This document shows, piece after piece, positions 5,219 through 44,847 of a stretch of 64,000 nt of DNA. The stretch spans positions 124,001 to 188,000 of the forward strand of contig JANQPV010000009.1 of NCBI GenBank assembly GCA_028285305.1, in the 5' to 3' direction. Under the pieces are notes generated by a model. It did no database searches. It was not told the DNA's origin and was given only the letters and a program-made list of their open reading frames with translations. This DNA comes from Alphaproteobacteria bacterium (GTDB lineage Bacteria > Pseudomonadota > Alphaproteobacteria > SMXP01). A program made the translations under genes and the position numbers. Position 1 is the first letter of the stretch. The number at the start of each line of letters is the position of its first letter.

Positions 5219-6862
5219 CTAGTACGACGGCTCAGTCGGATAGTCTTGGTCGCTTTTGTTGCCAAAGCGCGTGATATTGGCCTCAAACTGGAGCTCAACG
5301 GTGCCCGTTGGTCCGTGACGCTGCTTGCCGATGATAAGTTCGGCTAGGCCGTGGACCTTCTTGATTTCAAGCATCCAGGCCTCCATCCGCTGGAGGTCAT
5401 CTTCAGGTGGTTTGATGCGCTCCAGATAGTATTCTTCGCGATAGACGAACATGACGACGTCGGCGTCTTGTTCGATCGAGCCAGATTCCCGGAGGTCCGC
5501 CAATTGAGGACGCTTATCATCGCGGTCTTCGACCTTTCTCGACAGTTGCGACAAGGCGATGATTGGAATATTCAGCTCTTTGGCCAGTGCCTTTAGGCCC
5601 TGTGTGACTTCCGAGACTTCTTGCACGCGGCCATCGTTCCGGCGCGAGCCCGAGGTCGTCACAAGCTGCAAGTAATCGACGACCAGTAAATCGAGGCCCT
5701 GCTGGCGCTGCAATCGCCGCGCCCGCGCGGCAAGCGCGGCGATTGAGAGGCCTCCAGTATCATCGATATATAGGGGAAGTGAGGTCAGTGTTTGGTGCGC
5801 TTCCACGTAAGCGCGAAATTCCTCCTCCGTGATGTCTCCTTTGCGAAGGCGGTGCGAAGGGATCTGGGATTGTTCCGAGAGAATTCGGGTTGCGAGCTGC
5901 TCCGATGACATTTCAAGGGAGTAGAAACCGACGATGCCACCGCGTTCCCGTCTTGGGGAACCGTCTGGATTTTCGCCCTGCTGATAGGCCTTGGCGACGT
6001 TAAACGCGATGTTTGTCGCGAGCGCGGTTTTTCCCATGGACGGGCGCCCCGCCAGAATGATCAAATCAGACTCGTGCAGTCCGCCCAACTTGTGGTCCAA
6101 ATCGATGAAGTCGGTGCCGATGCCTGACAATCCCCCTTCTCGCTGGCACGCCTCGCTTGTGATGCGTACGGACTGTTGCGCGGCTTCGTCGAAGGAGATA
6201 AATCCACCTTCGTACAAACCATGTTCTGCCAACGAATAGAGCCTTTGTTCTGCCTCGGCGATCTGTTCGCTTGGACCAGTGTCCAAATCCACGTCCAGCG
6301 CGCTGTTGACGACATCCTGGCCAATTTCGACCAAACTGCGCCGCTGATAGAGTTCAAAGACGATGCGCGCATATTCCGGCGCATTGATGACAGTCGGGGC
6401 GGCGCCTGCCAAGCGCACCAAATATCCGGTTCCACCAACATCTTGAATCGTGGGATCCGTTTCAAAGTAAGGTTTGAGCGTGACCGGTGATGCGAGTTGC
6501 CCGCGGCTGATTAAGGTGCTGACGATATGGAAGATACGCTGATGAAGGGGTTCGTAGAAATGTTCCGGATTGAGGACGTCTGAAACGCGCTCATAGGCGT
6601 TGTTGTTAATGAGTATCGCACCAAGTAATGATTGTTCCGCCTCAATATTGTTCGGCAGTTCATTATAGGGGATTGACCGCAGATCGCTTGAGGTATTGGT
6701 CCCGTTCACGGCACCGGAATCGTCGTGGCTGGGCTGCAAGCGCTCTGCTTCAGAAACTCCGTTCCCTGATGAAGTCTCTACTTCGACCGGTGATTCAGAC
6801 CCTTCTTGCGAAGTTCCACTTTCGTTCGTTTCTTGAGGGGGGTCCAAGTCATCCGAAGCCAT
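5219..6862 (-). CDS. dnaB: Replicative DNA helicase DnaB
   Basis: Hexameric fork helicase. The 547 residues begin with a roughly 65-residue acidic, Ser/Thr/Glu-rich extension not needed for the fold, then the N-terminal primase-interacting domain (about 66-175), a linker, and the RecA-like domain with Walker A GRPSMGKT (272-279) and Walker B LLVVDYLQL. The C-terminus includes the R-finger region GKQRHGPTG. It is longer than the usual 470 or so because of the N-terminal extension. No in-frame intein interruption is visible around the Walker A site, a common intein site in dnaB. Confidence 0.96.
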   Translation of the reverse strand: MASDDLDPPQETNESGTSQEGSESPVEVETSSGNGVSEAERLQPSHDDSGAVNGTNTSSDLRSIPYNELPNNIEAEQSLLGAILINNNAYERVSDVLNPEHFYEPLHQRIFHIVSTLISRGQLASPVTLKPYFETDPTIQDVGGTGYLVRLAGAAPTVINAPEYARIVFELYQRRSLVEIGQDVVNSALDVDLDTGPSEQIAEAEQRLYSLAEHGLYEGGFISFDEAAQQSVRITSEACQREGGLSGIGTDFIDLDHKLGGLHESDLIILAGRPSMGKTALATNIAFNVAKAYQQGENPDGSPRRERGGIVGFYSLEMSSEQLATRILSEQSQIPSHRLRKGDITEEEFRAYVEAHQTLTSLPLYIDDTGGLSIAALAARARRLQRQQGLDLLVVDYLQLVTTSGSRRNDGRVQEVSEVTQGLKALAKELNIPIIALSQLSRKVEDRDDKRPQLADLRESGSIEQDADVVMFVYREEYYLERIKPPEDDLQRMEAWMLEIKKVHGLAELIIGKQRHGPTGTVELQFEANITRFGNKSDQDYPTEPSY

Positions 6863-39424: not shown

Positions 39425-39637
39425 ATGAGCGACGGCGTTGTGAAGTGGTTTAACCCGCAAAAAGGGTTTGGTTTTATCGAGCTTGATGGAGGCCAGCGGG
39501 ATGTTTTCGTGCACATCAGCGCCGTAGAACGTGCCGGATTAAGCACCTTACGCGAAGGATCGCGAGTTTCTTTTGATGCGGTAACCGACACGCGTACCGG
39601 AAAGACATCCGCGGAGAATTTGAAAGAGATTCGGTAA
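39425..39637 (+). CDS. cspA: Cold-shock domain protein
   Basis: 70-residue single OB-fold nucleic-acid chaperone. RNP1 is KGFGFIE and RNP2 is VFVHISA; the N-terminus [17 protein letters not shown] is the standard form. A GGAAT-type site lies before the ATG. It stands alone with long leader sequence upstream, and a small hairpin follows the stop. Whether it is cold induced cannot be read from the sequence. Confidence 0.94.
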
Positions 39638-39673: not shown

Positions 39674-39753
39674 TGCAGCATAGTCGCAGTGTCTGCGGAC
39701 TCGTAGGTATACAGAGCGACTAGTTGATGCAGACTATTTTGAGGACGAATGAA

Positions 39754-39990
39754 ATGGAAAATCAGACGACCAAAGTCTATGATCGGCAGACGGTGCTTGC
39801 AAAAAGGGCTGAAAGAGCTCGTGACGCTCAAGAAGCTTTGCGCGAGCACAGAGCGGAAATCGTCGCCCGACAGGCAAAGACATCTCGTCTAAGGGAGCTT
39901 CGATTGGCGAAGATGCAAGAATCCGAGGACGGAGAAGAGACGAAGCCGATCCTCAAGAAGCGCGTCCGCAAAATCGTACGAAAATTTTAA
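39754..39990 (+). CDS. Small basic, helix-rich hypothetical protein
   Basis: About 78 residues, very rich in Arg, Lys, Glu and Ala, with no signal peptide or membrane segment; the middle (AKRAERARDAQEALREHRAEIVARQ) should be a single long charged helix. It loosely recalls the DUF6481-type proteins found near cold-shock genes, but I cannot confirm that. A GAGGA site eight bases before the ATG at 39754 supports this start over 39727. Could bind RNA or ribosomes given its charge; unproven. Confidence 0.6.
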   Translation: MENQTTKVYDRQTVLAKRAERARDAQEALREHRAEIVARQAKTSRLRELRLAKMQESEDGEETKPILKKRVRKIVRKF

Positions 39991-40264: not shown

Positions 40265-41503
40265 TTGACTTCTTCATTTTCTTCACTCGGATTATCCGAA
40301 ACCATCAAACGCGCCGTAGCGGCAGCGAAGTACTCAACTCTTACGCCGATCCAATCAAAGGCCATTCCGGCACAATTGGAGGGGCGTGACTTGCTCGGAA
40401 TTGCGCAGACGGGCACCGGGAAAACTGCGGCTTTCGTTTTGCCATTGCTATATCACCTGGAACAACAGCGCCGTCACCCTTTGCCACGCACAACCCGTGC
40501 GCTCATTCTCGCGCCCACACGGGAGCTTGCAGTTCAGATTTCTCAGAGCATTTCTGTTTATGGCGCATACTCCAAATTGCGGCACGCCGTGATCACCGGC
40601 GGTGTTGGACATCAAAAACAGATAGCCCAGCTTAAGGGTGGTCTTGATATTCTTGTAGCCACCCCTGGTCGACTGATCGATTTGATCGACCGCAAAGAAC
40701 TGGATTTGGGAAGGACCGCTTATTTCGTCTTAGACGAAGCTGACCGGATGCTCGATATTGGTTTTATTCGAGATGTGAGGAAAATCGCCAAGCTCGTCGC
40801 CAAGCCGCGCCAGACCATTTTGTTTTCGGCCACGATGCCCAAGAGTGTGAAATCTCTGGCTGATGAGATATTGACCGATCCGGTCACGGTTGAAGCACCT
40901 GCCAAGTCAGTTGCGGCTGACCGCGTCGATCAGAAGGTGCTCTTCCTGGGTACGAAAGACAAAAATGCCCAACTGTGCAGAATCGTGAAGGATCCAGCCG
41001 TTGAAAGCGTCATTGTCTTCGTGCGCACTAAAAGACGCGCCGACAGAGTGACAAAAGTGTTGGATCAAAACAGCATCAAAACGTCTGCGATCCACGGAAA
41101 CAAGTCGCAGAACGTACGCCAAAAATCCTTGGAGCGCTTCAAGAAGGGCCGGATTAAAGCGCTTGTTGCAACGGATATTGCGTCAAGAGGGATTGACGTT
41201 GATGGTGTGACGCACGTGATCAATTTTGATCTGCCCGATGAGGCAGAAAGTTATGTCCACCGGATTGGGCGAACGGCGCGGGCGGGAAAGAGTGGGACGG
41301 CCATTTCCTTTTGCGACCCTTCCGAAACCAATCAGCTTCGTTCCATCGAAAAGCTGCTTGGGAAACAGATCGCAGCCGAACAAATCGAGGCCTCCGGAGT
41401 TCACAAGCTCCCCGAGCCGCGAGCTACAGCAGATGCAGATAAACTAAGTCCCAAGAAGCGGCGGCGTCCTTCCCGGAGCCGCCAACGAAGGCGGGCCGCC
41501 TGA
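40265..41503 (+). CDS. rhlE: DEAD-box RNA helicase, RhlE-like
   Basis: 412 residues. Q motif region (SSLGLSETIKRAVAAAKYSTLTPIQ), motif I AQTGTGKTA, motif Ia APTRELAVQI, motif II DEADRML, motif III SATMP and motif VI HRIGRTARAG are all present; the C-terminus is a short basic tail ending RRRPSRSRQRRRAA, typical of RhlE. The start is an unusual TTG at 40265 with TTAGGTAG upstream; no ATG fits. It shares one base with the next ORF. Placement after csp suits a role in cold RNA metabolism. Confidence 0.9.
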   Translation: MTSSFSSLGLSETIKRAVAAAKYSTLTPIQSKAIPAQLEGRDLLGIAQTGTGKTAAFVLPLLYHLEQQRRHPLPRTTRALILAPTRELAVQISQSISVYGAYSKLRHAVITGGVGHQKQIAQLKGGLDILVATPGRLIDLIDRKELDLGRTAYFVLDEADRMLDIGFIRDVRKIAKLVAKPRQTILFSATMPKSVKSLADEILTDPVTVEAPAKSVAADRVDQKVLFLGTKDKNAQLCRIVKDPAVESVIVFVRTKRRADRVTKVLDQNSIKTSAIHGNKSQNVRQKSLERFKKGRIKALVATDIASRGIDVDGVTHVINFDLPDEAESYVHRIGRTARAGKSGTAISFCDPSETNQLRSIEKLLGKQIAAEQIEASGVHKLPEPRATADADKLSPKKRRRPSRSRQRRRAA

Positions 41504-41733: not shown

Positions 41734-41774
41734 ATCCGAGCAATGCGCTCGACAACGACTGATTGGTGAGACTT

Positions 41775-42572
41775 ATGATTTATCGTGACTTGATTTCATT
41801 GCTTTGTCGAGGTATGCGCGCGCGTTCTTCAGTTTCGATGCTTATTGTTATCCTTTGTACAGGCGCCGTCTCCCCCACCTCCGCAACAGAATCGCTCGTG
41901 CCAGAAAACGCCTATGAAAAACGCTTCGGCAATGGTTGGGCGTGTCTGCGCGGCTTCAAAGCCGTCAACGACCAGTGCGTTCCTGTCGTTTTACCTGAAA
42001 ACGCTTACTTAGAGGGATCGGACGGACGGTGGAAGTGCCGGCGTGGATTCATCGAGAATGAAGGACAATGCACGAAAATCGTTGTACCCGAAAATGCTTT
42101 CTTGTCGGAAGAAATTCGCCTCGGCCGGGGCTGGAAGTGTGAACGGGGCTATCGGGATTCGGGTGGGGGGTGCCAGAAGATTAGCGTTCCTGAGAATGCC
42201 TTTATGACCGATAATACCGCGTACGGAAAAGGATGGGAATGCGAGCGTGGTTTTCGTGCGTCCGACGATACTTGTATTCGTATCGACGTTCCCGCGAACG
42301 GCTATCTCACGAACTCGCAATTCGGACCCGGATGGGTTTGTGAGCGGGGTTTCGCTGCCGACGGAAATCGGTGCGAGCCTGTAACCGTTCCCGAAAACGG
42401 ATATCTCTCCGACAAGGGAAATGATTTTAAGTGTGAGCGTGGATACGCGAAGGTGTCAAAGACCTGCGAGTTGATTGTTTTGCCCGCGAACACGCAGCTT
42501 GATTACTCGGGAAACAATTGGGAATGCAGCGAACCGTATATCCGGGATCGGGCTGGATGTGTGCTGAGGTGA
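41775..42572 (+). CDS. Secreted protein of seven cysteine-pair repeats
   Basis: 265 residues. Residues 14-38 form a signal-peptide-like stretch (SMLIVILCTGAVSPTSA). The rest is seven tandem repeats of 29-34 residues beginning at about 42, 73, 104, 138, 172, 205 and 236. Each follows [VL]P-[EA]-N-x, then W-x-C-x-R-G-[FY] and a second Cys. Cysteine pairs are 57/68, 88/99, 122/133, 156/167, 189/200, 220/231 and 251/262: every pair is 11 apart. The last repeat diverges (CSEPYI). An oxidised, disulfide-stapled extracellular or periplasmic fold is likely. I do not recognise a named family; GTG/TTG starts upstream (41763-41766) are less likely than the ATG at 41775 with GGTGAG before it. Confidence 0.8.
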   Translation: MIYRDLISLLCRGMRARSSVSMLIVILCTGAVSPTSATESLVPENAYEKRFGNGWACLRGFKAVNDQCVPVVLPENAYLEGSDGRWKCRRGFIENEGQCTKIVVPENAFLSEEIRLGRGWKCERGYRDSGGGCQKISVPENAFMTDNTAYGKGWECERGFRASDDTCIRIDVPANGYLTNSQFGPGWVCERGFAADGNRCEPVTVPENGYLSDKGNDFKCERGYAKVSKTCELIVLPANTQLDYSGNNWECSEPYIRDRAGCVLR

Positions 42573-44535: not shown

Positions 44536-44847
44536 ATGGGTATCATCAAACAGCCAGCTGTTTCTATCGTTGCGAGCAAAGGCAATGGCACCCTCTATAC
44601 AAATGGCACCCTCTATACAGGAGTTACGTCTAATCTGATCAAACGGGCCTATGAGCACCGCGAGGGTCTGGTGGAGGGTTTTTCAAAAAAGCACGGCTGC
44701 AAACTCTTGGTTTGGTATGAATCACATGAAGAGATGGAAAGCGCCATACTGCGTGAGAAGCAAATCAAAGCGGGTTCTCGCAAAAAGAAGATTCAACGGA
44801 TCGAGGCGGACAATCCCGGCTGGCGCGATTTGCACGAGGAACTTTGA
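44536..44847 (+). CDS. GIY-YIG single-domain nuclease (UvrC-N/YhbQ type)
   Basis: 103 residues. The GIY-YIG core is altered to GTLYT...GTLYTGVTSNLIKRAYEHREG with the catalytic Arg/His region; a second helix AILREKQIKAG matches the family. An 18-bp tandem duplication lengthens the first strand (see repeat). The C-terminus ends NPGWRDLHEEL as in typical members. Such stand-alone genes are frequent in alphaproteobacteria and have no known role. GAAGG lies before the ATG at 44536. REP-like elements lie after this gene and after nrdJ. Confidence 0.8.
   Translation: MGIIKQPAVSIVASKGNGTLYTNGTLYTGVTSNLIKRAYEHREGLVEGFSKKHGCKLLVWYESHEEMESAILREKQIKAGSRKKKIQRIEADNPGWRDLHEEL
44584..44619 (+). repeat. 18-bp perfect tandem duplication inside the nuclease gene
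   Basis: AATGGCACCCTCTATACA occurs twice in direct succession (44584-44601 and 44602-44619), keeping the frame and giving GTLYTNGTLYTG in the protein, that is one extra copy of the GIY-like strand. Looks like a replication slip. Confidence 0.9.

Follow-up and report, generated by a model that had tools for sequence, protein, structure and literature searches.

A gene at positions 41775-42572 of the window (the whole 64,000-nucleotide stretch of DNA that we analysed) encodes a small protein made of a chain of tandem repeats in which all the cysteine pairs have the same spacing. The original prediction described a secreted protein of seven repeats with no known named family, encoded beside two Hsp20 genes and possibly serving in surface adhesion, the matrix or envelope stress. 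This raises the question of what kind of module the repeat is, how widely it occurs and what such a chain might do for the cell. All coordinates given below are window positions, and L numbers denote family loci.

The gene and its seven repeats

The open reading frame is real: on the plus strand an ATG at 41775 is followed by 265 codons and a stop codon at 42570-42572, so that the coding sequence, stop included, occupies 41775-42572. An alternative in-frame TTG start at 41763 would give a protein four residues longer. A probable Sec signal peptide (41775-41885, plus strand) was read directly from the sequence; it has a charged start followed by a hydrophobic stretch, SVSMLIVILCTGAVS, and is probably cut after PTSA, at residue 37. 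Residues 2-28 of this leader form a helix in the AlphaFold model. The GC content of the gene (0.528) is near that of the window (0.542) and composition is therefore no mark of foreign origin. No RNA family was found around the gene, promoter-like matches near it were no commoner than chance, and its own genome holds no paralogue, the second match there having an E value of 0.06 and an internal stop.

Behind the leader a P-[EA]-N motif starts seven times, at residues 42, 73, 104, 138, 172, 205 and 236, and thereby sets out seven repeats, all on the plus strand. Repeat 1, of a type found at the start of such chains, spans 41898-41990 (residues 42-72, Cys57-Cys68) and is followed by repeat 2 at 41991-42083 (residues 73-103, Cys88-Cys99), repeat 3 at 42084-42185 (residues 104-137, Cys122-Cys133), repeat 4 at 42186-42287 (residues 138-171, Cys156-Cys167) and repeat 5 at 42288-42386 (residues 172-204, Cys189-Cys200). 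Repeat 6, in which Phe replaces Trp, lies at 42387-42479 (residues 205-235, Cys220-Cys231), and repeat 7, a family-specific closing type with the pattern N-x-x-LDYSGN-x-WEC-x-x-PY, lies at 42480-42569 (residues 236-265, Cys251-Cys262). The predicted succession of a signal-like leader and seven tandem repeats is thus borne out by the frame and by the positions of the motifs and cysteines. A motif W-x-C-x-R-G-[FY]-x6-C had been expected in every repeat; most repeats carry it, the exceptions being repeat 6 with its Phe and repeat 7, which reads C-S-E-P-Y.

The repeats are 31-34 residues long (30 for the last), and in spite of this variation the two cysteines are exactly 11 residues apart in 7/7 pairs, as had been claimed. 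When the mature sequence was shuffled 20,000 times, at most four neighbouring cysteine pairs fell at distance 11, against the seven observed. We found no tandem similarity among the repeats at the DNA level, which argues that they are old.

A widespread family without a name

A query with the whole protein against 40 related genomes gave no relatives. A profile built from the repeats recovered a family of leader-bearing proteins with the same cysteine spacing: multi-repeat frames were found in about 10 of 289 alphaproteobacterial genomes, tblastn placed relatives on 29 plasmids (mostly of Rhizobium, Ensifer and roseobacters), and a genome scan gave 48 loci, most of them alphaproteobacterial and several gammaproteobacterial. 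No phage or viral relatives were found. The family proteins are mostly standalone, with 190-340 amino acids and about 5-9 repeats, and their leaders resemble that of the window protein, frequently ending in A-x-A-[QE].

We cut 271 repeats from 40 family members. C-x10-C is kept in 268 of these repeats, Trp stands two residues before the first cysteine in 269, and an aliphatic residue precedes the proline in 256. The spacing is conserved across the family, which supports this part of the earlier interpretation. Cysteines outside the pairs are rare; in 32 of the 40 proteins their number is exactly twice that of the repeats counted and the remaining eight have two extra, which is consistent with one repeat having been missed by the pattern. 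First repeats were closest to the first repeats of other proteins in 33/40 cases, and last repeats to other last repeats in 40/40. We conclude that each end of the chain has its own type of repeat.

The family is unnamed. No Pfam or NCBIfam family matches the window protein above its cut-off, no NCBIfam family covers it, and a literature search found no text on the repeat; the absence of a named family, as first proposed, therefore stands for this protein. The MXAN_6577-like cysteine-rich protein family (NCBIfam NF041328) matches 12 of the 40 members weakly, with a best E value of 9e-5, and does not match the window protein itself.

Some loci depart from the usual form. Two repeat genes are apparently broken, one by a frame change (L044:3708-4430) and one shortened to a two-repeat frame (L101). 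On a Shewanella plasmid (L037:4068-5513), five repeats end a protein annotated as peptidoglycan-binding domain-containing, whose gene is near genes for an Hsp70-family protein and an ATP-binding protein. At L124, a protein that appears caspase-like by eye has a related cysteine-rich tail, CPLVCDRGFKADGDTCVKITC; it shares the C-D-R-G-F-x6-C hairpin motif with the window protein but differs from it in that the tail sits on an enzyme-like protein, has more cysteines and forms no repeat chain.

A predicted fold of two hairpins per repeat

AlphaFold gave high-confidence models both of the full-length protein (run with 40 sequences, mean pLDDT 90.2) and of a two-repeat segment (mean pLDDT 89.1). It can be seen in these models that each repeat consists of two hairpins, one spanning P-x-N...W-x-C and the other lying inside C-x10-C; in repeat 1 the modelled strands 61-64 and 67-70 form this minor hairpin, and likewise in later repeats. 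The predicted hairpins support the proposal of one loop closed by cysteines in each repeat. The pTM values are 0.62 for the full-length and 0.66 for the two-repeat model, and the overall form of the chain is consequently less certain than that of each bead.

Structure comparison with Foldseek and VIA matched the models to EGF, TNFR, laminin-EGF and CCP/sushi modules, with Z scores of at most 3.8. For the full model the top row of VIA was 1n1i, the MSP1-19 fragment of Plasmodium knowlesi (Z 3.8, 2.8 A over 39 residues). The scores of TNFR and CCP/sushi modules came close to those of EGF. Since all of these scores are low, comparison of folds does not by itself decide between them.

The repeat as a probable reduced EGF-like module

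Sequence comparison was more selective. The Pfam family EGF_MSP1_1 (PF12946) matches 32 of 40 family members at E values up to 0.1, the best being 1.6e-12, and the repeat thus reads as kin to a known module, a change from the original prediction. The window protein itself scores 24.2 bits, below the gathering cut-off of 27 bits. The cEGF family matches nine of the 40 members. When single repeats were compared with PF12946 over whole genomes there were no matches to an E value of 0.001, and the controls were silent too, which makes this comparison uninformative. The best sequence match in the PDB was again P. knowlesi MSP1-19 (1n1i).

An EGF-like domain has six cysteines bonded 1-3, 2-4 and 5-6, a pattern that the window protein, with two cysteines in each of its seven repeats, does not have; only the 5-6 pair has a counterpart. 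The printed sequence of 1n1i, C-IDTN-V-PENAA-C-YRYLDGTEE-W-R-C-LLGFKEVGGK-C, can be set beside the bacterial pattern [VIL]-P-x-N-[AG]...W-x-C-x-x-G-[FY]-x6-C. By our own reading of the cysteine order, the P. knowlesi domain appears to carry Val and Trp at the places of EGF cysteines 2 and 4. In the bacterial repeats these same places are taken by an aliphatic residue and by Trp, the Trp standing two residues before the C5 place in 6/7 repeats of the window protein, and cysteine 3 is absent too. Between the closing cysteine of one repeat and the aliphatic residue of the repeat that follows, the offset is five residues, which equals the distance of EGF cysteine 1 in 1n1i. In the first repeat of a Vibrio relative, cysteines occupy both the aliphatic and the Trp sites (C-PANA...C-x-C), as in a true EGF domain.

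The first EGF-like domain of MSP1 thus shares with the bacterial repeat [VIL]-P-x-N-A, W-x-C, C-x-x-G-[FY]-x6-C and the two-hairpin layout. The two differ in that MSP1 keeps the 1-3 disulfide whereas the bacterial repeat has the 5-6 pair only, and in that the MSP1 module belongs to a eukaryotic surface protein, as one of a pair of domains, whereas the bacterial one is repeated in tandem about 5-9 times. With cEGF and classical EGF domains the repeat shares the minor hairpin C5-x-x-G-[FY]-...-C6, present as C-x-R-G-[FY]-x6-C in 6/7 repeats of the window protein; in contrast to classical EGF, which has three disulfides and often a calcium site, it has neither. Ahead of P-x-N the residues are aliphatic or vary, and the D-x-[DN]-E pattern is missing, so the repeats are not of the calcium-binding type (EGF_CA). 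On the strength of the EGF_MSP1_1 matches, the MSP1-19 match, the correspondence of sites and the Vibrio cysteine pair, we interpret the repeat as an EGF-like module in reduced form, which would have kept only disulfide 5-6. This reading concerns fold and probable descent, not membership of the EGF class.

It is also conceivable, though we think it unlikely, that the repeat is unrelated to EGF and is either a convergent W-x-C/C hairpin module or a relative of sushi/CCP or TNFR modules. A single disulfide offers little anchor for homology, and CCP and TNFR chains reach nearly equal Z scores; however, the sequence matches single out EGF_MSP1_1, with which the aligned P-x-N-A, W-x-C, G-[FY] and last-cysteine positions agree. 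Sushi/CCP modules have about 60 residues and four cysteines bonded 1-3 and 2-4, which does not fit repeats of 31-34 residues with two cysteines, and no Sushi match was found in Pfam among the 40 family members.

Neighbouring genes and cold shock

Upstream of the repeat gene, and on the same plus strand, lie genes for a cold-shock-domain protein of 70 amino acids (39425-39637) and, about 270 bases away and immediately upstream, for an rhlE-type DEAD-box RNA helicase (40265-41503). Between these two is a frame for a basic protein of 88 amino acids (39724-39990) that has no Pfam match; the idea that it is a DUF6481 protein was dropped. A small GIY-YIG domain protein is encoded at 44536-44847, near the Hsp20 genes.

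To put these neighbours in a wider setting we used the surroundings of 50 family genes (593,694 bases) and a background of 310 cold-shock protein genes in 269 Mb from 96 alphaproteobacterial genomes. A cold-shock protein gene is found near 13 of the 50 loci against about 0.7 expected, an enrichment of ~19-fold, and even the density of the densest genome would predict only 1.7 loci. The corresponding P value of about 1e-12 overstates the significance, as the loci are not fully independent, although they span many lineages. An rhlE gene lies upstream of the repeat gene in six loci, the window included; in Kordiimonas gwangyangensis (L049) it lies directly upstream, and a fatty-acid-desaturase cluster is near it in three. 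At L045 rhlE ends at 6397, the cold-shock gene occupies 6478-6690, and the start of the repeat gene follows at 6697; these gaps of 80 and 6 bases suggest that the three genes form one transcript. In Caulobacter, RhlE is induced by cold and growth in the cold needs cspA/cspB (PMC10715135). The remaining 37 of the 50 loci have no cold-shock gene in the DNA examined and other neighbours recur as well, so the link to cold may be limited to some lineages. The stress setting originally suggested is matched by stress-type neighbours, but not by those first named: no recurrence of Hsp20 was seen among the neighbours of family loci, and the ones that recur are cold-shock protein, rhlE and fatty-acid-desaturase genes.

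DUF1488 is a further recurrent neighbour. SulP-type transporter and universal-stress-type protein genes, so named by our own reading of the sequences, adjoin the repeat gene at L041, L042, L044, L055 and L085. At L058, L059, L075 and L076 it is adjoined by a conserved run of small genes, encoding proteins of about 115 amino acids, of 65-73 amino acids with CxxC motifs, and with CPDC/CPKC. In five Rhodobacterales loci (L034, L036, L039, L064 and L070) a 117-amino-acid protein with a probable membrane segment precedes it.

Other neighbours bear on the possibility that the protein binds peptidoglycan or D-amino-acid fragments, as a periplasmic wall factor whose repeats line the wall. A gene for a D-Ala-D-Ala-ligase-like ATP-grasp protein lies directly upstream at five loci (L048, L052, L063, L066 and L078), in the same five Rhodobacterales loci DUF1611 and a gene of alanine/ornithine-racemase type come after the repeat gene, and the Shewanella protein with five repeats bears its peptidoglycan-binding annotation. 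We regard this as rather improbable for the window protein, because the ligase and racemase neighbours are lineage-specific and absent beside the window gene, and the enzymes could serve another pathway.

Proposed role of the protein

The explanation that we favour overall, and hold to be probable, is that the protein is an exported chain of seven reduced EGF-like modules stabilised by disulfides, its likeliest role being in the envelope or at the surface after induction by cold or stress. We infer the following course. The protein would be expressed with the cold-shock protein and RhlE in the cold or under similar stress, exported via Sec, and oxidised at each cysteine pair in the periplasm. 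Each module would retain the disulfide equivalent to that between EGF cysteines 5 and 6, with the aliphatic residue before P-x-N and the Trp before x-C taking the place of cysteines 2 and 4. The modules would line up as a rod with distinct beads at its two ends. In the envelope or at the cell surface this rod would have a structural function or bind a partner, in the latter case perhaps by way of the Arg and aromatic residues that recur, conserved, along the chain.

Tandem EGF-like beads might instead act outside the cell, in a secreted adhesin or matrix protein. Eukaryotic EGF-like chains are mostly extracellular binding rods, and the variation in repeat number from about 5 to 9 between species resembles that of many surface proteins; against this, the standalone family members show neither an apparent membrane anchor nor an outer-membrane domain, and we give this alternative only a small chance.

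Tandem EGF-like chains are regarded as eukaryotic extracellular building blocks. The leader and the repeats are in themselves ordinary; a wide, unnamed family of one-disulfide EGF-like proteins tied to cold-shock genes is not. Our broadest proposal, which is tentative and may well prove wrong, is that these widespread tandem proteins belong to the envelope, are induced by cold and carry, where EGF has one of its disulfides, an aliphatic residue and a Trp, as MSP1 does in some malaria parasites. With one disulfide per bead and a hydrophobic pair in place of another, they would offer a simple system for asking how few disulfides such a module needs. A further implication is that the cold response may include an exported protein, listed in the annotation records examined only as 'hypothetical protein' and amenable to expression and deletion tests in culturable relatives.
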